64,000 bases of DNA from Fulvivirga marina. Lineage in GTDB: Bacteria; Bacteroidota; Bacteroidia; Cytophagales; Cyclobacteriaceae. The position numbers and the translations under genes are program-made. The stretch is taken from assembly GCF_016775155.1 (NCBI RefSeq), contig NZ_JAEUGD010000042.1:248001-312000 (forward strand), in the 5' to 3' direction. Of the stretch, positions 29,178-43,125 are shown in pieces; the first letter of the stretch is position 1, and each line of letters starts with the position of its first letter. The notes below the pieces were generated by a model. The model worked only from the letters and a program-made list of their open reading frames with translations, was not told where the DNA came from and did not search any database.

Positions 29178-29996
29178 TTAATTTATTCTTCTAAATATTC
29201 TTTGGTTTAGGTCATAAAATTCAAAGCGTTCTTTGTCTATAATTGGCACAAGAGCATCAAAAAAGCCTATGATTAACAATCCTCCTGTGTTTAAACAGTC
29301 ATAAAATTTATTAAGTACTAACTTCTTGGCTCCACTATCAAAGTAGATCATAACATTCCTACAGAATATAATATCATACTTTTCATGATTTTGATCAGTA
29401 ATCAGATTGCTCACTTTGAATTTGACATCTCTAATTAAAGATAAATCCATTGCTCCTACTTTACCTTGTTGTTCATAATATTTTTCTAATGAACCCTGAC
29501 CTGCATATTTTAAATAATTATGATCATAATCTTGAAGTTTTAACAAATGATACTTTCCTTCTTGTGCGCTTTTTAATGCATCAGAATTCATATCAGAGGC
29601 CAGAGATCGCAACCTGCCTTCAAGTCCAATTTCACGAGTTAAAATATTTAGTGAAAAAACTTCTTCTCCTGTAGAACAGCCTGCATGCCATATTGATATA
29701 CTTTTTTTATCTCCAATCAATGTTGGCAATATATCTTTTAGTCTTATCCAAAAACCAGGGTCTCTGAACATTGCTGTTAAGCCCACTGATAATTCATTAA
29801 CAAAAGGACTTACAAACTCTTTTTCTTTAAGAATCTTAACCCACAGCTCATGAATAGAGTTTAATTTAAATACTGATAATGCCCTGATTATTCTTCGCTT
29901 CAGAGATTTAGGTTCATAACAAGTAAAATCAACGCCATGCCTCTGCATGATGGCTGCAGTTAAAGAATTGATTTCTTCATCAGATATATCTATCAT
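29178..29996 (-). CDS. cheR: Chemoreceptor glutamate methyltransferase CheR
   Basis: The 272-residue enzyme methylates glutamates of the chemoreceptor using S-adenosylmethionine. The N-terminal helical domain has TCYEPKSLKRRIIRAL, and the methyltransferase part has FRDPGFWIRLKDILP, the SAM motif IWHAGCSTGEEVFSLN and YDIIFCRNVMIYFD. The start overlaps the end of the PAS protein gene by four bases, and it is the last gene of the chemotaxis operon. No TPR extension or pentapeptide-binding feature is obvious. Confidence 0.95.
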   Translation of the reverse strand: MIDISDEEINSLTAAIMQRHGVDFTCYEPKSLKRRIIRALSVFKLNSIHELWVKILKEKEFVSPFVNELSVGLTAMFRDPGFWIRLKDILPTLIGDKKSISIWHAGCSTGEEVFSLNILTREIGLEGRLRSLASDMNSDALKSAQEGKYHLLKLQDYDHNYLKYAGQGSLEKYYEQQGKVGAMDLSLIRDVKFKVSNLITDQNHEKYDIIFCRNVMIYFDSGAKKLVLNKFYDCLNTGGLLIIGFFDALVPIIDKERFEFYDLNQRIFRRIN

Positions 29997-32878
29997 TTGG
30001 CGGCTATTTTTACAATCATCTCTTTATCAATAAGTATCATAAGTATTCTGGTGATGTCATTACCTGAATTCTTTATGGGATGGAAGACAGCCCTAAATAT
30101 TCTAATATTACCTTCCTGAGATACATGTGATATTATATCTTCCACTACCTGATCCCTTTCATTTTTTTTAACTATGTTGTTCATATGAGCAACACTGAAA
30201 TCTGTCTTGAAAAAATCACTTATAGGGCGGTTACGTAATTCAAGTTTTGATATTCCAAAATCATTATGAAATATTTGATTTGCCTTAGCGCATTTGCCTT
30301 CAGGGGTTAATTCTATTACCGGTACAGTATTTTTAAAAGCCCCTAACAACTGAGTATTATTTATTTCTCTTTCCTTTTCCAGTGTATTAAATTGGGCAAA
30401 CATTTTAAAGCTTTCAATTTCACCATTTGTAGACATCACCGGATTAAATGTTCCTAGTAGCCATAAATTTTTACCTTCTTTGGATTGCTGTTTAAATTGG
30501 CCTGTAAAAAAATGGCCTTCCATAAGGTTACTCCACATCATTTCATTTTGTGGCTTTTTGCTCTCCTCACTTGTTAGCAAAACCTCATACCCTTTACCTA
30601 GTAGGTCACTTAAATCATATCCGGAGATATCCAGATATACCTTGTTAGCATTTATAATTTTAGCGTCTTTATCAAACTCTAGAATGGCTATAGTTTTATT
30701 CAGTGTTTCTAAATGACTGCTTAACTCCTTTCTTTGATTTTCAGTTTGGATATGCAGCTCCTTTTCTTTTGTTACATCTGTGGCGTATTTTATTATTTTC
30801 ACGGTCTTTCCCTCAATATCAAGCAAAGGGTTGTAGACACCTCTCATCCATATTTCCTCTTTATCACGATTGATCCTCCGAAATTCTCGATTTATAAACT
30901 TTCCGGATTTAAGGTCTGCCCACAATTGTTTGTACTCAGGAGAGTTGATATCTTCTTTAGGGATCAGAATTTCATGATGTTTGCCTATTAATTCTTCCCT
31001 TTTGTAATTAACTATCTTTAGAAAATTATCATTTACCTCTATGATGTTCCCGTTTATATCAAATTCTATAACGGCATTTGATCTGTTAATAGCTTCTAAC
31101 TTATTTTTATAATCTAGTGCTGAGATTTTTGTTTCGGTAATATCGGCCTGAACTGAGATGTATTTATCTACTTCTCCATTTTCATTTTTTACAGGGTTTA
31201 TAGCCATAGACACCCAATAGGAATTTCCCTCTTTATCATAGTTTAAGATTTCTTCATATAAAGATTCTTCAGATTCAAGTTTTTTTCTAATTCTTGCTAA
31301 TGTGTCCTTATCAGTATTTTTCCCTTGTAAGACGTCACCTGGCTTCTTCCCAAACATATCATCCAGAGTATACTTAGTTAATCTTGTGAAACCAGGATTT
31401 ACATATTCCACAAGTCCTTCAGCATTGGTTATAATTACTGAATTATTGGTGTTATCTGCTACCAGGGATAACCGTTCGAATTCCTTTTCTTTTTCCTTTC
31501 TTGCAGTAATGTTAAGTAAGAGAACTAAAATTTTGGATAGGTTTCCTGAAGCATCCTTTACTCCTGAATAGTTGGCATTTAGCCAAACTACTTTACCTGA
31601 CTTTGATTTGATTTCAAGCTCACACTCATAGTTTTCACCTCCTTCCACTGAAGCCCAGAGATTTTCAATATGATTAGGAAGTAATAAGCTTGATCTATTT
31701 CTTAATTCATCAGTACTAAGGCCAATAATATTATTAATGCTTTCATTCGCAGTTATGATGTTGCCCTTTGTGTCAAACTCAACAAGACCTTGTGAGCTAT
31801 TAATAGCTGAAAAAAGTCCATCAATTTCAATCTTGCCCCTTTGGAGCTCTTCTTGAGTAGATTGAAGCTTCTCCATATGATGCCTCATTTCCTCTTCCTG
31901 AGATCTCAACTCTTCAGACATTTGCTGAGACTTAGCAAGAAGATTCTTTGTATGTTGGTTTATTTTAGCCGAAGAAACTGTAGAGGCTACTACTTCAGCT
32001 ACTTCTTTTAAAAATTCTACTTTATAGGGAGGTAATATTTCGAATGAAGCTAATTCAATTGCTCCGTAGCAAATATCATTTACTAAAAGTGGTACAATAA
32101 TAATATTATTGGGAGTTGCCTCTCCTAAACCAGATGTAATATTGATATAATCATCAGGAATATCTGTGAGGAAGATAATTTCTTTTTCAAGCATTACCTG
32201 ACCTATCAACCCTTGCCCCTCTTTAATTCTATTTTCTATAAATTTCTTTCTGTCATAGGCATAGCAAGCAGATAGCTCGAAAAATCGCTCATTCTCTTCT
32301 TCATACTGAACAAAAAAAGCGCCCTGATTTACCCCAACGTATTTTACCATATTACTAAGGATGATAAAGCTTAATTCCTTTAAGTCTTTATCATCTGTTC
32401 TTAATAGCTCACTAAATTTTGCCAACCCCTCATTTTGCCAACTTCTTCTTTTTTCCTCCTCATTTATTTTGATTTGATTCTCTGACAGGGCTACCAGTGT
32501 AGAACCAATGGGACCATTTACATCGAGGTGTTTAAACTGAAAGGTTTCATTACCGAGTGATTTAACAAAATCAATAACTTCCTGCATTTTGAAATGCATT
32601 GATTGGATGTGAAAAGTTATCTGAGAAAAAGACTCTGATACCTTTTGAACAGGAATTACCCCACTGTCAATCTGGGCTGAGAATTCCTTGAGATTTATAA
32701 GTTTATTTGCGATTTCATTCACTAACCAAAGTGTGGCTAAAAGACTTATTGCCAAAAATACAGTGGAAACAAGTGTATTATTTAATATATGTAGCGATGC
32801 AGCCGATATACAGGTAGATAACACAATCGCTATTATCAGAACGAGTACTTTTCTTCCTAGAAGCTTGAATTTTTTCAT
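29993..32878 (-). CDS. Membrane GAF and five-PAS sensor without output domain
   Basis: The 961-residue protein begins with two membrane segments (residues 8-28 and 32-52), followed by a linker, a GAF domain (about 150-310), a coiled coil (about 315-355), and five PAS domains (about 358-480, 480-600, 600-720, 725-845 and 845-960). Each PAS has the usual GxIxxxN core, for example FDTKGNIITANE, TNAEGLVEYVNPGF and FDINGNIIEVND. No kinase, methyl-accepting or cyclase domain follows. It sits between cheC and cheR, three bases after cheC, and its PAS domains resemble those of the receptor encoded upstream. It may sense for the array as a partner protein, which is inference. Confidence 0.85.
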   Translation of the reverse strand: MKKFKLLGRKVLVLIIAIVLSTCISAASLHILNNTLVSTVFLAISLLATLWLVNEIANKLINLKEFSAQIDSGVIPVQKVSESFSQITFHIQSMHFKMQEVIDFVKSLGNETFQFKHLDVNGPIGSTLVALSENQIKINEEEKRRSWQNEGLAKFSELLRTDDKDLKELSFIILSNMVKYVGVNQGAFFVQYEEENERFFELSACYAYDRKKFIENRIKEGQGLIGQVMLEKEIIFLTDIPDDYINITSGLGEATPNNIIIVPLLVNDICYGAIELASFEILPPYKVEFLKEVAEVVASTVSSAKINQHTKNLLAKSQQMSEELRSQEEEMRHHMEKLQSTQEELQRGKIEIDGLFSAINSSQGLVEFDTKGNIITANESINNIIGLSTDELRNRSSLLLPNHIENLWASVEGGENYECELEIKSKSGKVVWLNANYSGVKDASGNLSKILVLLLNITARKEKEKEFERLSLVADNTNNSVIITNAEGLVEYVNPGFTRLTKYTLDDMFGKKPGDVLQGKNTDKDTLARIRKKLESEESLYEEILNYDKEGNSYWVSMAINPVKNENGEVDKYISVQADITETKISALDYKNKLEAINRSNAVIEFDINGNIIEVNDNFLKIVNYKREELIGKHHEILIPKEDINSPEYKQLWADLKSGKFINREFRRINRDKEEIWMRGVYNPLLDIEGKTVKIIKYATDVTKEKELHIQTENQRKELSSHLETLNKTIAILEFDKDAKIINANKVYLDISGYDLSDLLGKGYEVLLTSEESKKPQNEMMWSNLMEGHFFTGQFKQQSKEGKNLWLLGTFNPVMSTNGEIESFKMFAQFNTLEKEREINNTQLLGAFKNTVPVIELTPEGKCAKANQIFHNDFGISKLELRNRPISDFFKTDFSVAHMNNIVKKNERDQVVEDIISHVSQEGNIRIFRAVFHPIKNSGNDITRILMILIDKEMIVKIAAK

Positions 32879-33480: not shown

Positions 33481-35220
33481 TTAAATGGACAAAGCATTTT
33501 TAGTTGAGAAATTTCTTGAGAAGATCAGGTTGCTGATTTCCGCAACATTTAGAACTAGACATACGTGCCCATTTCCCATTATTGTGACTCCACTTATTAG
33601 CTTAACTTTATCAAATGGCCGCATTAATGGCTTTTCAACAATCTCCTTTTGTTGTAGAAGTTTGTCAACAACAAGCCCAATTGTGCGATTATTATATGAC
33701 ACAATAACAATATCAAGCTTCTTCTCAGGGTGGACTTCATTAAAGCTTTTATGCAAACTGTTAGGTCGGTAAACAGTTAGGTCGAGTATATCTTTCAGAA
33801 AAACAATTGATATTATGTTACCGAGATAGGTGGAAACAAGTCCGTTAGCAACTTTATGAATATCTGGTTTATAAAGTGATACTACTGCTTTAGTATAAGA
33901 TAGGGGTATCGCAAATGTTTCGCTATCTAATTCAAATAGCAATGTGCCTTTTACAGCCATTGAAGATGGTAGTCTTAAAGAGAAAGTAGTGCCAATGCCT
34001 TTTTTAGTATCTACCGATATATTTCCACCAATTGAATCTAATGCTTTTTTGACAACATCCATTCCAACTCCTCTGCCTGATATGGCTGTCACTTGATTCA
34101 TGGTACTAAAACCAGGTTCGAAAATTATCTGAACCATTTCATTATCGGATAATTGATTGGCATCATCTGGAGAAATAAGACCCTGTTTGATGGCTTTCTT
34201 TCTAGCTGCGTCAATGTCAATACCCGCTCCGTCATCAATTATCTCAATTATCACAGCATCACTTTCACTACGAGCACTTAGAGTAATTACTCCCTCTTCT
34301 TTTTTATTATTTTTCTTTCGTATTTCAGGTTTTTCAATCCCATGGCCAACTGAATTTCTGATCAGATGAATGAGAGAATCACTTATTATCTGGAGAATAT
34401 TTCTATCAATTTCAGTTTCTGTACCTTTAAGCACTAGTCCCACTTTCTTTTTCTCAAGATTAGCCGCATCTCTAACTACTCTATGGAATTTATTAAACAA
34501 AAAGCCAACCTGAACTAACCTAACATCCATTACAGAATATTGGAGATCTGAAGATATTCTATTGAGACGTGTGTATTCATTAGTCTTTACTACTCCAGAA
34601 TTAGAGGCAATTATTCTGTCTCTTTCAATTACCAATTCTTCAACCAGATTGAGAAGATTATCCAGCTTTCTCACTGGAACTTGAACGAGGTCTGAAAAGC
34701 TTATTTTTGAATTATCATTCTCAGGTTCTTCATCTAACGGATCAAAAATAGAATCTTCTTCAACCGATGTATCATTAGCTGGTGAAACATTATCTTCTAC
34801 ACTTTTTTCTTCTCCTGAAGATTTAGCTAATGCTTCATTTTTTGTAGTCCTTAAAAGGACTTCCATTTTCGTCTTTATCCCTCTAAATTTTACAGCTTTA
34901 TTATCTTTAATGGCATTTATTAACTTTCCAAGGGTGTCTAAAGCTTTAAATAATGTGGTGAAAATTGAATCTTCAAGCACCAATTTACCTTCTCTTGCTT
35001 CACCAAAAAGATCTTCTAAAATGTGGGAAAAATCCGACACATTTTTAAACCCCATTCCTGCTGCATTACCTTTTAATGTATGTGTAATTCTAAATATTGC
35101 ATTAATGGTTTTTTTATCGCCAGGGCTCTTCTCCAGTTGTGTCAATAGTCTATTCAACTCCTCATAATTCTCAAGAGCTTCAGCTAAAAATATTTCCTTA
35201 TATTCTTCTTCTTTAGACAT
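33481..35220 (-). CDS. cheA: Chemotaxis histidine kinase CheA
   Basis: The 579-residue kinase has an Hpt (P1) domain with phospho-accepting His47 in RITHTLKGNAAGMGF, an acidic linker (about 130-180), a dimerisation helix pair with VRKLDNLLNLVEELVIERDRI, an HATPase domain with the HLIRNSVGHGIE N-box and GRGVGMDVVKKALDSIGG, and a C-terminal CheW-like P5 domain. The linker shows no P2 (CheY-binding) domain, so the enzyme is shorter than the usual 650 residues or more. It couples receptor state to phosphorylation of CheY and CheB, both encoded just upstream. Confidence 0.95.
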   Translation of the reverse strand: MSKEEEYKEIFLAEALENYEELNRLLTQLEKSPGDKKTINAIFRITHTLKGNAAGMGFKNVSDFSHILEDLFGEAREGKLVLEDSIFTTLFKALDTLGKLINAIKDNKAVKFRGIKTKMEVLLRTTKNEALAKSSGEEKSVEDNVSPANDTSVEEDSIFDPLDEEPENDNSKISFSDLVQVPVRKLDNLLNLVEELVIERDRIIASNSGVVKTNEYTRLNRISSDLQYSVMDVRLVQVGFLFNKFHRVVRDAANLEKKKVGLVLKGTETEIDRNILQIISDSLIHLIRNSVGHGIEKPEIRKKNNKKEEGVITLSARSESDAVIIEIIDDGAGIDIDAARKKAIKQGLISPDDANQLSDNEMVQIIFEPGFSTMNQVTAISGRGVGMDVVKKALDSIGGNISVDTKKGIGTTFSLRLPSSMAVKGTLLFELDSETFAIPLSYTKAVVSLYKPDIHKVANGLVSTYLGNIISIVFLKDILDLTVYRPNSLHKSFNEVHPEKKLDIVIVSYNNRTIGLVVDKLLQQKEIVEKPLMRPFDKVKLISGVTIMGNGHVCLVLNVAEISNLIFSRNFSTKNALSI

Positions 35221-35244: not shown

Positions 35245-36279
35245 TTAAAAGCAGCTCATAACAAATCCTGGTATTTCATTTAGATTGACCACATAATCAA
35301 TTGCACCAATGTCTATTGCAGACTGAGGCATCCCATTGACTACACATGATTTACCCTCCTGTGCGATGGTCAAACCGCCTTTTTCTTTCATTTTTAGAAG
35401 GCCCTGACTGCCATCTTTACCCATCCCGGTAAGGATGATACCGATACCTTTGGTACCATATATTTCAGCAACCGATAAGAACATGCAGTCCACTGAGGGG
35501 TTGTTAAATTCTTTAAAAGTTTTCTTACTTACTCTAAAATAAGCTTCACCCTTTTCATTTAACCCAATCTCGTAATTGTCCGTACCAGGTGTTATATAGA
35601 TAGTACCCTTTTTTAGAGCTTCATTTCTTTTGGCTAATCTTATATCTAAAGGAACCAATGTATTCAAGCGATGAGCAAATGATTCCAAGAATCTCTCAGG
35701 CATATGTTGGACAATAACAACAGGAACCATTAGGTTTTCAGGTAGCTGTTTAACTATTAATTCAATTGCACGGGGACCACCTGTAGAAGATCCTATCGCT
35801 ATTATATGGTAAAGTGAATTTTTATCGAATGTATGTTTATTCGTGTTTACTTTATTCTGCTGATGGTTTAGAACATTGGAATCAAATCCTGAGGCAATCT
35901 TGATTTTATCTTTTAGTTTTTTGAGTTCATTTTTAAAATCTTCCGGGTTTTTTGTTTGTGGTTTATCTATAAAATCAAACGCCCCAGCATTAAGTGCGTC
36001 AAATATTTCAGGTGTTGTTTTACCTAAAGAGCTTAATAAAATAATAGGTAATGGATTGTTTGACATGATTTCTTTCACGGCAAACAACCCGTTGAAATCA
36101 GGCATAAGCATATCCGTTACTACCACGTCTGGATGAAGTTTCCTTGCCATTTTTGCACCTTCCTTGCCATTAATTGCAGTGCCCACAACTTCAATTTCAG
36201 GGTCAGAACGTAACGCATCGGATATCATAATTCTCATGAGACCAGAATCTTCAATTAGCAGTGTTTTTATTTTTTTCAA
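35245..36279 (-). CDS. cheB: Chemoreceptor methylesterase CheB
   Basis: The 344-residue protein combines a receiver (residues 4-120, phospho-acceptor Asp in DVVVTDMLMPDFNG) and the methylesterase/deamidase domain (about 155-340) with Ser in AIGSSTGGPRAIE, His in VIVQHMPERF and Asp in LTGMGKDGSQGLL as the catalytic triad. It removes methyl groups added by CheR and gives feedback adaptation. It lies between cheY and cheA in the operon with short gaps. Confidence 0.96.
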   Translation of the reverse strand: MKKIKTLLIEDSGLMRIMISDALRSDPEIEVVGTAINGKEGAKMARKLHPDVVVTDMLMPDFNGLFAVKEIMSNNPLPIILLSSLGKTTPEIFDALNAGAFDFIDKPQTKNPEDFKNELKKLKDKIKIASGFDSNVLNHQQNKVNTNKHTFDKNSLYHIIAIGSSTGGPRAIELIVKQLPENLMVPVVIVQHMPERFLESFAHRLNTLVPLDIRLAKRNEALKKGTIYITPGTDNYEIGLNEKGEAYFRVSKKTFKEFNNPSVDCMFLSVAEIYGTKGIGIILTGMGKDGSQGLLKMKEKGGLTIAQEGKSCVVNGMPQSAIDIGAIDYVVNLNEIPGFVMSCF

Positions 36280-36651: not shown

Positions 36652-37107
36652 TTAATTGTTTATATGGTTATGAAATTTTTGTTGAGGGGTACTAACTATT
36701 AACTCCCCAGTGGAAATATTCAATCTTGCGGTTCTACTCTCATTACCACCCAAGTCTTCTGATTCTATCAGTATCCTCATTTTTTTTAGATCCTTCTTTA
36801 CTGAATCGACATTTCTTTTCCCGATGCAATAAGATTCCATGCTGAAAATATTTGCACCACCAACAAGTCTTGCCCTGATGGTTAAAGGCTGACTTCCTAG
36901 CAATAGCATTTCACTGATCATGGCAGTAATGATATTGAAGCCGCCACATTTATCAGAAGGTGTCATTATGTGTGCACCAGCTCCAATTCTTTTGAATTTG
37001 TCATAGAGGAACACACCAACACATGAGCCTAAACCGAAGCAAATAATTTCGCCAGGAGAATTAGAAACAGCCCACTCGCTCAACCCTAAAACATGTGTTT
37101 GTTTCAT
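36652..37107 (-). CDS. cheD: Chemoreceptor glutamine deamidase CheD
   Basis: The ATG at 37107 gives 151 residues and begins two bases after the cheW stop, while a start at 37131 would overlap cheW by 23 bases; the shorter form is preferred. The family motifs are present: catalytic Cys in CFGLGSCVGVFLYD, His in GAGAHIMTPSD and the IRARLVGGANIF segment. CheD deamidates receptor glutamines to glutamates and also stimulates CheC, so it fits the neighbouring cheC. Confidence 0.93.
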   Translation of the reverse strand: MKQTHVLGLSEWAVSNSPGEIICFGLGSCVGVFLYDKFKRIGAGAHIMTPSDKCGGFNIITAMISEMLLLGSQPLTIRARLVGGANIFSMESYCIGKRNVDSVKKDLKKMRILIESEDLGGNESRTARLNISTGELIVSTPQQKFHNHINN

Positions 37108-37108
37108 G

Positions 37109-37648
37109 TTATTGAGATTTCGCATCTTCAAGAGCGGCTAAGGTTTCTAATTCTGGCTCGTCGAGCACTTTGAAAATATCAATTAGAATAATTAGTCTAT
37201 TATCTAATTTGACAAGGCCCTTGATATAATCTGAATTCAAGTTGTTGTCATGAATAACATTTACTGATTGCTCTATATTACTGGATTTAATAGTTAAAGT
37301 ATTGGGCACTTCTGTTACTAAAATTCCAACCTTATAATCCTCACTTTCTATAACCAATGTGTAATTATTGGCCTCATTAGCTTCAGCGGTTGTTGTGGCT
37401 TCTTTTAACCCAAACTTCTCCTCGAGATCAACAATGCCAATAATATTACCACGAATGTTTGCTACGCCTTTTACAAAACTTCGTGTTTGTGGCATTTTGG
37501 TGATATTCGGAGTTAATACCACTTCCTTGATTTGATCAATATGGATTCCATATTCCTCATCACCTTGTCGAAATACTATCAATTGCTGAGAAGCGACCAG
37601 TTGCTCGGTTTCTACAGTTTTCGCTTCATGTTTTTCCTGATCTAACAT
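37109..37648 (-). CDS. cheW: Chemotaxis coupling protein CheW
   Basis: The 179-residue protein has a single CheW domain (about residues 20-165) with LIVFRQGDEEYGIHIDQIKEVV, MPQTRSFVKGVANIRGNIIGIVDL and VKLDNRLIILIDIFKVL. It links the receptor to CheA. A 20-residue Gln/Glu-rich start and a 15-residue tail extend it beyond the usual length. It follows the receptor gene after four bases. Confidence 0.95.
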   Translation of the reverse strand: MLDQEKHEAKTVETEQLVASQQLIVFRQGDEEYGIHIDQIKEVVLTPNITKMPQTRSFVKGVANIRGNIIGIVDLEEKFGLKEATTTAEANEANNYTLVIESEDYKVGILVTEVPNTLTIKSSNIEQSVNVIHDNNLNSDYIKGLVKLDNRLIILIDIFKVLDEPELETLAALEDAKSQ

Positions 37649-37652
37649 GTTA

Positions 37653-40600
37653 TTAGCGTTTTCTTAATGTGAATTGATTAACCCCTGCCTGAAGTTCAGC
37701 GGCAACAGCTGATAGTTGATCACTTGCTGCTGCTATTTCTTCCATACTAGAGTCAAGCTCTTGAGAGCTGCTAGCAACCTCCTGGGTGCCAGCAGCTGTT
37801 TCTTCAGCTACTACTACTATCTGCTCGATGTTTTTAACCACGGTATCTATCGACTTTTTCTGACCCGATGTAGCTTCCTGTATTTCTAATGAATAACTAA
37901 AAGTCTCATCACTTGATTTAGCTATTTGCTGGAAGATGCTTTCAGCTTCTACAGTGGCAGTATTGCCATGCTTAACGCTTACTTCCATTGTTTCAATGGC
38001 CTTGCTCGCTGATGAGGTGTCTTTCTGGACATCTTTGATGATTTTTTCAATATCAATTGCCGATTTTCTTGAATCTTCAGCCAGTTTTCTAATTTCTTCA
38101 GCTACAACTGCAAATCCACGCCCGGCATCTCCAGCCCGAGCAGCCTCTATAGCCGCATTAAGAGCTAATAAATTAGTCTGTGCTGCAATGTCAGTAATTA
38201 CATTTAACGTCCTGGCTATTTCTTCTGCCCGTTCCGTCAATACTTTAATTGAAGAGGCTGTTAAATCGGCAGAAGAACTTATTCCTGTCATATTATCCAC
38301 AAGCTCCTTAATTATTTTAAGTCCTAATTCAGAGCTTTCTTGTCCATTTTCAGCTGCCTTATTTATTAAATTTGCTTTACTCTCCATTTCAACTGCAGAG
38401 TTCATTACTTCCTCAGCTAATTTAGATGACTCATCTGTTTTTGAAGCCTGATCTTGCGCACCTTTAGACATTTGAGATATTGCAGAGGCAACCTCTGTAG
38501 TATTGCTCTTCATACTTTGACATTGCATCAGCATGCTGTCTGCCGAATTTGCTACTTGTTGAGCCCCATCATCTATGGTACTTAAAAGAGCATTCAGGTT
38601 TTCTAAGGCTTTATTGAGAGCATCTCCCATTTCTCTAACATATCCATCGGCATTCATTTCAAATGAGGTAGTCAAATCCCCTTCAGCCATTTTATTAACG
38701 ATATCCTTAACTTCCATTACTGGGAATTTGACGAATGAAATGTCAGTAGCTATTTCTATTATTCTTGCAATATTTCCATTCTCATCGGCAACAGGAGCGT
38801 AAGCAGCTTGCAACCAAACTTTGCTGCTATCCTTTTTGATTCTAAGAAATTCCCCTTGTTGCACTTCACCGTTAGCAAGTGCTTTCCAGTAAGATTTATA
38901 TTCTAAAGAGGATATATAATCCTCATCGCAAAATATTTTATGATGTTTTCCTTTAATGTCATCGACATTACTATAGCCCATGGTTTTAAGGAAATTATCA
39001 TTTGCAGAAACTACGGTACCATCAGGATCATATTCGATAAAACCCCAACCGGTATCAACGGCCTTTTGTAGCTGAGAGGCTTTTAGTTTTGCTTCACGTT
39101 CTTGAGTTATATCTTTTATAAATGCAGTGTACTGCGTGGTTCCTGCTGCAACTACTTTACTAAGTGATAGATTTCCCCAAAAAGTACTACCATCCTTCCT
39201 TGTCATCTGAAGATCTCGGCCTAGGCCAACAACTTTATTCACTCCTGTATCTAAATTGGATTTTACATAATTGTCATGATTCGCACGATGTTCTACTGGC
39301 ACTATCATTTTGACATTTTGACCAATGACCTCATCTCTACTATAACCAAACATTTTCTCTGCGGCCTTATTAAAAAAGGTCACAAGTCTGTCTTCATTAA
39401 TTGTCACTACAGAATCTAATGCCTGCTCTAAAATTTCCCTGTTTTTTATCTTCTCTTCAACCTCTTCAGTTATGTCTTTAATAAAAGCGGTAAATTGAGT
39501 TTTGCCATTAAATTCAACCTTACTTAATGAAAGGTTACCCCAAAATTTAGAACCATCTCGTCTGGTCATTTCTAAGTCACGGCCTGAGCCAACAACTTTG
39601 TTCACTCCAGTCTCGATATTGTCACTGATATACTTGTCATGATTACCACGGTGTTCAATGGGAACAATCATTTTTACATTTTTACCAATTACTTCTTCTC
39701 TACTGTAACCGAACATTTTTTCTGCAGAACTGTTGAAAAACTCAATTATTTTATCAGAATTAATGGTGACAACAGAATCTACAGCTTGTTCAAGAATTTG
39801 AATATTCTTCTGCTTTTCCTCAACCTCATCTGTTATATTTTTAATGAAGGCAGTGTATTGAAGCTCACCACCAACATTAACTTTACTTAATGAAAGGTTA
39901 CCCCAAAATTTGGAACCGTCTCGTCTGGTCATTTCTAAGTCACGGCCTGAGCCAACAACTTTGTTAACTCCGGTTTCAATATTGTCACTGATATACTTGT
40001 CATGATTATCACGGTGTTCAATAGGAACAATCATTTTGACATTTTTACCAATAACTTCGTCTTTTGAATAGCCAAATAAAAGCTCTGCTGAGTTATTATA
40101 AAATGTGATTAATTTGTTTGAATCTATTGTGACAATGGCATCAACAGCTTGTTCAAGAGTCTGTTCAATTCTCATTTGAACTCGTTTCATTTCTTCTTGA
40201 GTGGTGGTCATTTCCTCAAGATTTTGTCTTAATTCTTCTTCCTGAGACCTAACTGATTCTAGAGCTTCTTGAATTTCAGCTTTTTCGGCTGTTACATCAA
40301 AGGCCACTTTTATTACTTTTACAACCTCACCTTTTTCATTGCTTACCGGAGTGTATGATGCTTGAAGCCAAACCTCTCTTCCGTTTTTACCAAATCGCCT
40401 AAACTTTCCTGTTTGAGGTTCCCCATTTTTAAGTTTGTTCCAAAAGGCTTTATAGTCCTTTGATTTCGAATAATCTTCTTCAATAAAAATGCTATGGTTA
40501 TTTTTGATAATATCCTTTTTGGCATAGCCCATTATCTTTAAGAATTTCTCATTTGCATCAATTATAATCCCTTTGGGGTCAAATTCGATGGATGCAAAGG

Positions 40601-41123
40601 CAGCATTAATAGCATCCAATTTGCCTTGTAGATTTATGTCAATATTTTTTTCTACTGATCCATTATCATTGCTTTTACTTGTAGGCTTATTTTCTTTTGA
40701 TAATTTGGTGTTTGCCATAGTTGTATTGTTTGATATCCCGAGAATGTCTTTTTTTGTTTTGGAAACTATGTCCATAATTTCCTCTTGTATAGCCGTATCA
40801 ATTTTTAGTGTTACTAGTGTGGAGGTTAAATGATTGGCTACTGCATTGAAATGCGTTTCGTTAAGTCCTTTCTTAAGCAGGGGTTTGTGAGCAGCGGCCA
40901 ATGATTTTCCGGTATATTTGACGGGGGCTCCAAAAGCATACATCAAGAATGATGTCATTTTATGCTTTTGCTCACCAATGTCAATTCCATCAAAGAATGG
41001 AGTCAATAATGAATCCTCCATTATCTGCTTATATAGAATTTCACTTGCTTTTTCAAGCAACTTTTTTCCTCCAATTCTTTGATAAAGAGTTGATTCTGTA
41101 GTTATTTTTTTTTCAGTTGACAT
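37653..41123 (-). CDS. Soluble chemoreceptor with N-terminal truncated haemoglobin and five PAS domains
   Basis: The 1156-residue protein has no membrane segment. Residues 10-130 match group-1 truncated haemoglobin: [20 protein letters not shown] with Tyr31 at the B10 position, the [14 protein letters not shown] segment, FLMYAFGAP, and [12 protein letters not shown] with His79 as proximal haem ligand. Then come PAS1 (about 165-285), a coiled coil, three near-identical PAS domains (about 315-685), PAS5 (about 690-810), a HAMP-like linker, and a methyl-accepting domain with [20 protein letters not shown] and [17 protein letters not shown]. It is the first gene of the che operon. Sensing O2, NO or redox is inferred from the globin; typical aerotaxis globins (HemAT) belong to a different globin group. 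Confidence 0.88.
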
Positions 41124-41601: not shown

Positions 41602-43125
41602 CTATTGATTTTTCAGGTTTGCTTTCATTGAAATTAATCGTCCTTTTATATCATTAGGGACATTAACTTCTACTATGGTACCCTTTTTTACTTCTGAATT
41701 AACAGTTATAGTTCCATTGAGTTTATTAAGAGTTTCTTTAACTATATACAACCCTATACCTGAACCTTTCGACCGGTGTGTCCCTCTGAAGAACATGTCA
41801 AAAATATTAGGTAAATGACTGTCTGGAATGCCTATGCCAGTATCACGGATTTCTAACCATAGTCTATCAGGGTGATGGTGGCTATTAATTTCTACCGTAT
41901 GTATTGCATTATTTGGGTCATAGAATAGTATTGCATTTTTAATAACATTGGTAATAATAACTTTCAACCGTTCAGAATCTGAATAGAAGGCAAAATCATC
42001 CTGACAATTAATACTAATTTTGGTGTTTTGATATTCTGTCTCATGGTGCAATTTATCTATGGTCTCCTTTATTAATTTTCTAGTGTCAATTCTTGTGCTC
42101 TGAACTTTAGAACCGGAATTTTGAGCCAGATCAATTGTATCCTCAAGTATACCCTTAAGTATGTTGGTACTTTTCTTTATCATTTGTGTATACTCGGATA
42201 CAGCCTCAGGAATTTCTCTATCCATATCAAGAAGCTGGCATAACCCTAAAATTGTGGTAAGCGGTGACTTTAAATCATGGGATACACTATAAAAAAATCT
42301 ATCAAGCTTTTGATTTAATTGTTTTAGTTCAGCATTTTTTTGTTGAAGAGTAATTTTGTTTTGGCTTAAGTCAGAAAGGCTTATAATGGAGAAATCAATA
42401 AACTTCTTATTTTCATTATCTACATATTTTGACCCGCTAAGAATACCTTCAAAAACTTGACCATACTTTTTCTTAAACATTATCAACTCATTAACGATAA
42501 TGCCATCTGAGTCAATCAGATTAAGGATATTGTTGCTTTGTTCGGTGTTATTAAAAATTACCGACATAGAATTTTCTAGAAGTTCCCCTTCATTGGAATA
42601 GCCGAACAATTCCAGCATTTCATCATTGACGTATACAATATCACCACACTGATATGCACGAAAATTCGCATTATTTAGATTTTTGTGAATTGATTGAAGT
42701 ATTAAATCTCTCTTGGTTACTTCTTGCTCTTTACGCTTAAACTCAGTAATGTCCTTAAAAGTGAAAATGAATAAATATGGCAGGTCTGCAACATTCAACT
42801 TTACTGAAATGCCTGTTATTTTTAACCATTTGCTATTATTGTCATTAAATACATGTACATCACTTTCAATATAATCTGTTTTTCCCTTAAACAGAGACTT
42901 TAGCTCTTTACCTATTTCTTTGGAATTCCCCCCAAGCATGTCGGGAATATTTCTCGGTATTAAAGCATTGGAAGAAAGGATATTCTTTGATATCTCAAGG
43001 GCCTCTAAGTTGTATTTTATGATTTTTCCTCTGGCATCAGATAAAACTAAACCCGTTTGTACTTTATGGATAAATGATCTTTTCAATAAATCAAAATCAG
43101 AGATATGTTTACTTGTAGCTTTCAA
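41602..43125 (-). CDS. PAS sensor histidine kinase
   Basis: The 507-residue cytoplasmic protein has two PAS domains (about 15-135 and 145-255), a HisKA domain with phospho-accepting His in FFYSVSHDLKSPLTTILG, and an HATPase domain with the VIKNAILFYDP N-box, LEIRDTGIGIPD and GSGIGLYIVKETLNK. It has no receiver of its own. It lies 53 bases after another PAS kinase on the same strand and upstream of the che operon, so it may feed the same response regulators; its partner is unknown. Confidence 0.9.
   Translation of the reverse strand: MKATSKHISDFDLLKRSFIHKVQTGLVLSDARGKIIKYNLEALEISKNILSSNALIPRNIPDMLGGNSKEIGKELKSLFKGKTDYIESDVHVFNDNNSKWLKITGISVKLNVADLPYLFIFTFKDITEFKRKEQEVTKRDLILQSIHKNLNNANFRAYQCGDIVYVNDEMLELFGYSNEGELLENSMSVIFNNTEQSNNILNLIDSDGIIVNELIMFKKKYGQVFEGILSGSKYVDNENKKFIDFSIISLSDLSQNKITLQQKNAELKQLNQKLDRFFYSVSHDLKSPLTTILGLCQLLDMDREIPEAVSEYTQMIKKSTNILKGILEDTIDLAQNSGSKVQSTRIDTRKLIKETIDKLHHETEYQNTKISINCQDDFAFYSDSERLKVIITNVIKNAILFYDPNNAIHTVEINSHHHPDRLWLEIRDTGIGIPDSHLPNIFDMFFRGTHRSKGSGIGLYIVKETLNKLNGTITVNSEVKKGTIVEVNVPNDIKGRLISMKANLKNQ

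Follow-up and report, generated by a model that had tools for sequence, protein, structure and literature searches.

The window analysed here, a stretch of 64,000 nucleotides of the genome of Fulvivirga marina (Cytophagales), contains a run of nine che-type genes on one strand, headed by the gene of a chemoreceptor, P0001 (Table 1). The receptor gene is followed by cheW, cheD, a cheY-like gene, a cheB-like gene, cheA, a gene for a CheC-like protein, a GAF/PAS gene and cheR, all of which are presumably co-transcribed with it. The CheC-like protein has no Pfam match at 1e-4. Upstream of the receptor, between positions 41602 and 50709, lie the genes of two PAS histidine kinases and of a 1731-aa PAS-rich hybrid kinase with a receiver.

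Table 1. Features of the che cluster and of the receptor P0001, with positions in the window.
Feature	Position	Strand	Basis or remark
trHb1-PAS5-MCP chemoreceptor gene (P0001)	37653..41123	-	1156 aa, without visible transmembrane stretch
Group-1 truncated haemoglobin domain, residues 12-127	40743..41090	-	PF01152 3.9e-14
PAS1, residues 169-281	40281..40619	-	flavin-like reading; closest solved 3ewk 9.9e-12, Aer 2.3e-8
PAS2, residues 318-439	39807..40172	-	FixL/DosP-type, His374 and Arg394
PAS3, residues 449-553	39465..39779	-	FixL/DosP-type, His495 and Arg515
PAS4, residues 562-672	39108..39440	-	FixL/DosP-type, His616 and Arg636
PAS5, residues 690-800	38723..39056	-	flavin-like reading; closest solved 3ewk 8.5e-11
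HAMP-like linker, residues 801-844	38592..38723	-	weak: HAMP_2 E 0.0012, under cut-off
Methyl-accepting signalling domain, residues 922-1103	37815..38360	-	Pfam
cheW	37109..37648	-	4 bases past receptor; Agaribacillus neighbour 6.1e-75, L116 (Pfam CheW) 7.6e-9
cheD	36652..37131	-	PF03975 2e-18
cheY-like receiver, 118 aa	36291..36647	-	assigned from translation
cheB-like	35245..36279	-	assigned from translation; corresponding Agaribacillus gene matched at 6.9e-82
cheA	33481..35220	-	Pfam: Hpt, dimerisation, ATPase and CheW domains; globin-free
CheC-like protein, 195 aa	32882..33469	-	CheC gives the sole two PDB matches at E up to 1, 0.008 and 0.009
GAF/PAS protein	29993..32878	-	Pfam: no output domain; FixL-type motif absent; between CheC-like gene and cheR
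cheR	29178..29996	-	PF01739 9.1e-33

The receptor consists of a group-1 truncated haemoglobin (trHb1) joined to a soluble, PAS-rich MCP. Its highest 19-residue hydropathy mean is 1.24, versus 2.6 and 3.0 in the two other, membrane-bound MCPs of the genome, which has four MCPs by genome search, two of them globin receptors. The MCPsignal domain, the lack of a transmembrane stretch and the adjoining cheW and cheA place it among the cytoplasmic MCPs. The initial annotation had described the N-terminus as a trHb1 outside the HemAT sensor-globin family, followed by five PAS domains and a methyl-accepting domain, and had named an HMM search and a structure prediction as checks. Both agree with it: PF01152 and MCPsignal occur in one protein, the five PAS domains are recovered, and the predicted fold of the globin is THB1-like. 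The sensor-globin families PF11563 and PF00042 give no match in the receptor at E up to 1, a limit at which 20 Pfam families are found, and HemAT-type globins are absent among the 50 matches listed for its globin domain, which by itself proves nothing. With an N-terminal globin and a signalling output, the receptor may work like a globin-coupled sensor of the HemAT type, yet it is no member of that class.

The accompanying claim that no trHb1-MCP had been described did not hold. The accessible text of an in silico study of 2018 (PMC6194562) lists seven proteins with PAS, Bac_globin (PF01152) and MCPsignal domains in 8,075 complete genomes, so that the basic fusion was already in print; the receptor, with all three Pfam domains in one chain, falls into the class defined there. 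The FixL/DosP type of PAS2-4 had been overlooked. The receptor is less unprecedented than first claimed and more unusual in detail, as a probable four-haem receptor, and it belongs to a wider pattern in which different parts of the chemotaxis machinery use trHb1.

The PF01152 match, together with a 2/2 globin fold closest to group 1, identifies the domain as a trHbN. By our own assignment of helix positions, the key residues are Tyr31 (B10), Phe44 (CD1), Gln52 (E7), Lys55 (E10), Met56 (E11) and His79 (F8). The proximal His79, Tyr31 and Phe44, as expected of a trHbN, are invariant across 39 aligned sequences, and the closest solved globin is Chlamydomonas THB1. Met at E11 is rare among relatives, the receptor L088 of Agaribacillus having Gln there, and the receptor globin sits on a long branch (1.0-1.1) in the trees. 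As judged from these residues, the domain would bind haem through His79, and the ligand would probably be O2, aided by Tyr31 and Gln52. An unlikely alternative is that the globin senses NO or redox state, with Lys55 as a sixth haem ligand that is displaced by NO or on redox change, while the FixL-type PAS domains sense O2. The receptor and L088 both have Lys at E10, as do 31 of the 34 other rows in alignment A3, and according to the accessible text of PMC7082302 this residue is the sixth ligand in THB1, THB2 and THB4, the first of which is the closest solved structure. However, the same source also gives LysE10 for THB10 and THB11, whose reduced forms are five-coordinate; LysE10 therefore does not decide the coordination. 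Moreover, E11 of the receptor is Met, not Gln.

Among the PAS domains, PAS1 and PAS5 look flavin-like: 3ewk, which we take to be an FAD PAS, ranks first for both, with Aer among the lower-ranking matches. For PAS2-4 the comparison with solved structures points to haem. A profile of these three domains and their three Agaribacillus counterparts retrieves 13 PDB sequences at E <= 1e-10, each of them DosP or FixL, and PAS4 searched by itself scores 6.4e-29 with DosP and at best 1.1e-21 with FixL, versus 5.8e-7 for the best other PAS. The predicted model of PAS4 is weak (pLDDT 67); ranks 1-28 of its fold search are DosP or FixL throughout. The haem His and the Arg are unchanged in all six copies of the two receptors, at a spacing of 20 residues, and the invariant Arg is the counterpart of the one replaced in the DosP R97A structures. 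The place aligned with the DosP Met that precedes Ser-Arg is taken by Ser or Leu. With His and distal Arg in place and the best matches among solved PAS domains, PAS2-4 are classed as FixL/DosP-type haem PAS domains. At the DNA level they appear as 300-nt direct repeats with a 363-nt spacing, two copies sharing 71% and 67% identity with the reference copy.

As a check against chance, a hand-written pattern for the FixL-type motif was run over the six frames of the window and gave three matches, all inside the receptor gene. The Agaribacillus receptor likewise has three copies of the motif, and L008, L025, L034 and L042 have a single one apiece; the remaining 37 of the 41 frames checked from relatives have none. 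It is not strictly tied to the globin, because L034 and L042 carry it without one. Since PAS2-4 are of the FixL/DosP type with haem His and Arg kept, the receptor may carry four haems per chain, one in the trHb1 and three in PAS2-4.

Few receptors of this kind were found in Bacteroidota. The globin query matched 10 of 58 relatives, this genome included, and frames of more than 1000 aa at the matches were found in two of the 58, namely this genome (two places) and G001. PF01152 matched 65 of 296 genomes of the phylum, with frames of more than 600 aa at the match only at the two places of this genome; a 577-aa frame (L028) was seen in G328. The Agaribacillus receptor, used as query against 390 genomes of the order at the strict limit of 1e-200, matched only this genome. 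Among the best 80 of at least 535 relatives retrieved with the globin alignment, this genome being left out, is the receptor L088 of Agaribacillus aureus BMA12 (JAUJEB010000001.1), with trHb1, three FixL-type PAS domains, one further PAS and MCP, followed by cheW, cheD, cheB and cheA in the same order as in the window. Nearly the same plan is thus present in a second genus, and within the searches made P0001 and L088 are the only two globin receptors of Bacteroidota with an intact pocket. An uncultured Fulvivirga (L102:8986-12230) has a lone trHb1 a few kb from cheB-, cheD- and cheR-like genes.

The C-terminal part of the receptor has relatives in 33 of 117 related genomes at 1e-60, at 45 places, 40 of which were taken in (G001:C177, three of G363:C7 and G021:C6 were left out). 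Inspection of the first 170 residues of 41 MCP frames revealed a globin only in L008 and L025. In the MCP-domain tree these two form one clade with P0001, L088 and the globin-less L029 of G030 (support 99/97); the G030 receptor lacks the FixL-type motif as well. The history of the clade is most simply explained by a single gain of the globin, a single loss of it and a single loss of haem ligation.

The receptor L008 (L008:5194-9408; 1404 aa) belongs to this same genome, where the two globin receptors lie in twin che clusters about 111 kb apart. It has seven PAS stretches, some of them tandem and nearly identical. In L008 and its relative L025 (G001, 1032 aa) the trHb1-like domain lacks B10 Tyr, CD1 Phe and F8 His, although that of L025 still matches THB1 at 6.5e-7. 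These two domains without His F8, together with the G030 receptor without a globin, indicate that the globin is dispensable or able to act without haem. The haem-less twin cautions that a structural role of the globin is also conceivable, or else the twin may sense through its PAS domains alone.

Outside Bacteroidota, trHb1 was found at other places of the chemotaxis machinery. Among the best 80 of at least 535 relatives, four are chemotaxis fusions (L066, L088, L111 and L116): L066 is an MCP with trHb1 at the C-terminus, and L111:5236-6393 and L116:5230-6360, from alphaproteobacterial MAGs, are CheW proteins with a C-terminal trHb1. In three others of these 80 (L072, L076 and L078) an MCP frame runs into the trHb1 frame and overlaps it at a run of A. 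Altogether, nine of the 80 globin loci show che genes. The trHb1 frame of L072 and L076 has no ATG, GTG or TTG ahead of the conserved core, and that of L078 is open farther upstream; in-frame MCP-trHb1 copies are present in other Nitrospinota. The junction could represent a programmed frameshift, slippage, decay or a sequencing error, and in these three Nitrospinota genomes it may be frameshift-controlled. Proteins of about 270 aa made up of two trHb1 domains in tandem were also observed, in gammaproteobacterial MAGs (L125 and L126).

PF01152 matched 107 of 337 genomes of Alphaproteobacteria. Twenty loci were picked for long frames among the matches listed, the long frame G898:C1:602409 being left out, and 14 of them, from 13 genomes, encode a CheA with trHb, as judged by similarity to the che proteins of this genome (L142, L143, L145, L147, L148, L152, L153 and L155-L161). 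L150 is an MCP with an N-terminal trHb1, and L151, cut by its contig end, looks similar. The remaining four (L144, L146, L149 and L154) were ruled out as fusions, their long frames having no che match, so that long open frames alone are no proof of fusion. A P2 domain is usual between the Hpt and the dimerisation domain of CheA. Pfam searches of five of the proteins (four CheA, one MCP) placed the globin after Hpt and before the dimerisation domain in three CheA; the CheA L142 has a stronger globin in its CheW part and a weaker one behind Hpt. CheA relatives carried by Azospirillum plasmids align only in the region of the Hpt part, among the matches listed. In Nitrospinota, a match at 1e-15 was obtained in 17 of 77 genomes, at 20 places. 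By similarity only, six of these have MCP sequence in frame ahead of trHb1 and six are CheA with trHb (L172, L173, L176, L177, L178 and L180); at L165, L169 and L170 the open frame holds just part of the MCP domain. The remainder comprises the three frame-overlapping junctions already described for L072, L076 and L078, two rows for a single place that is interrupted within the globin, and three globins that stand alone or in short frames. Taken over both phyla, the trHb domain of the CheA proteins lies mostly between Hpt and the dimerisation domain.

The pocket residues of these globins bear on the possibility, which we regard as quite improbable, that the globin is mainly structural or partner-binding, its haem being incidental or partly lost in the family and the PAS domains being the true inputs. 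F8 His is absent from five alphaproteobacterial CheA globins, which would fit this explanation, as would the domains of L008 and L025, likewise without it, the latter still recognisable by its THB1 match, and the globin-free clade member. However, the pocket residues are retained in P0001 and L088, and the chemotaxis-borne rows keep F8 His in 33 of 40 and F8 His with B10 Tyr in 31 of 40. Of these 40 rows, 37 come from fused and 3 from frame-overlapping globins, and two of the CheA contribute a pair of rows. F8 His and B10 Tyr are both present in all 34 other rows of A3. These counts leave out L175/L181 (one broken place), L166, L174, L179 and L011, and include L072 twice, among the 34 and, as L162, among the 40. 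E7 is Leu in 17 of the 22 CheA rows and Gln in the MCP and CheW rows.

Two globin trees were computed, both without the Nitrospinota fusions from the 77-genome search. The first left out L142_1, L156, L158, L160 and L161, and was not used to place the window globin because of its very long branches; the second additionally left out L145_1, L157, L159, L008, L025 and L011. In single-origin tests on the second tree, its 15 chemotaxis-fused globins as one clade have a p-AU of 0.072; the grouping of Cytophagales globins with alphaproteobacterial N-terminal MCP globins has 0.124, and that of the two Cytophagales globins with each other 0.474. Independent recruitment is argued solely from the differing attachment places and from five label changes on the best tree. 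A tentative generalisation, to which we give somewhat less than even weight, is that trHb1 serves as a gas-input module at every layer of the chemotaxis array, with whole arrays gated by O2 or NO and the window receptor as a probable four-haem form. The proposed layers are the receptor N-terminus (Cytophagales, Alphaproteobacteria), the receptor C-terminus (Rhodospirillales, Nitrospinota), the CheW C-terminus, and CheA in the stretch that separates Hpt from the dimerisation domain (Alphaproteobacteria, Nitrospinota). Should the trHb domains of CheA and CheW prove to bind gas, the array could be gated by O2 or NO at the level of the kinase, whichever receptor is stimulated.

For the window receptor itself, the sequence data favour a cytoplasmic multi-haem receptor for O2, possibly for NO or redox state, which probably steers gliding; we consider this reading likely. 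Besides the globin haem, three further haems would be bound by PAS2-4 through His374, His495 and His616. A change in ligand or redox state would be relayed by the helices of the PAS and HAMP-like regions to the MCP hairpin, and the hairpin would set CheA activity through CheW, with adaptation by CheR, CheB, CheD and the CheC-like protein. The output would most likely bias T9SS-linked gliding, which is proposed because no flagellin gene (PF00669) was found in the genome. GldM is present, and by itself is no demonstration of gliding. Haem loading, ligand, response direction and gliding output are the putative parts of this scheme. It is also conceivable, but rather less probable, that the cluster drives an output other than movement, such as gene expression or a surface or biofilm state, like some che-like systems. 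The missing flagellin gene and the several sensor kinases upstream are compatible with such an output, whereas movement is favoured by the Pfam-recognised CheA, CheR and CheD, by CheW and CheB as assigned from similarity or reading, by the CheC-like protein and by GldM.

The cellular role of trHb1 proteins is often unclear, and a trHb1 with three FixL-type PAS domains in one chain offers a direct way to ask what trHb1 signals. Globin and FixL-type haems normally lie far apart in O2 affinity; the array could therefore widen the sensed O2 range, and the receptor allows one to ask whether haems of differing affinity widen the range that is followed.

Our literature search, in which most subscription journals were outside coverage, yielded no receptor with a globin and FixL-type PAS domains and no trHb in CheA or CheW; among the uses of trHb1 across the chemotaxis machinery, only the MCP form was found in print. 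The accessible text of PMC6194562 names Cc_4972 of Corallococcus coralloides, a cytosolic protein in a che cluster, as a proposed aerotaxis receptor. Like the window receptor, it and the six others unite an MCP with a PF01152 globin and PAS within a single chain, but in that text no Bacteroidota are listed and FixL is not mentioned. Gammaproteobacterial MCPs with Bac_globin and without PAS are also given there. A search of 39 Colwellia genomes did not recover the fused protein listed there for this genus, and no frame of more than 199 aa occurs in them at a PF01152 match. HemAT and other globin-coupled sensors, including Atu1027, likewise join a globin to an MCP and are soluble, with direct O2 sensing shown or proposed in the sources as accessed; their globin is of the globin-coupled-sensor type (PF11563 according to PMC6194562), whereas that of the receptor is a PF01152 globin with a 2/2 fold. 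In the accessible text of a 2026 aerotaxis review (PMC13401364) the globin receptors named as tested are HemAT, GCSBh and Atu1027, and the word "truncated" is absent. Azorhizobium IcpB is, as the receptor, a cytoplasmic MCP with a haem PAS, but is described in the same text as relatively simple in domain composition, with no globin mentioned.

Among single-domain proteins, Chlamydomonas THB1 and cyanoglobin GlbN align with the receptor in Tyr B10, Gln E7 and His F8, and THB1 also in Lys E10; unlike the receptor, they have no signalling output. FixL and DosP, the closest solved PAS proteins to PAS2-4, have the haem His and Arg in common with it, whereas in the receptor the output is an MCP and the haem-type PAS is present in three tandem copies. 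The Agaribacillus aureus receptor differs from the window receptor in lacking the flavin-like PAS1 and in having Gln at E11.
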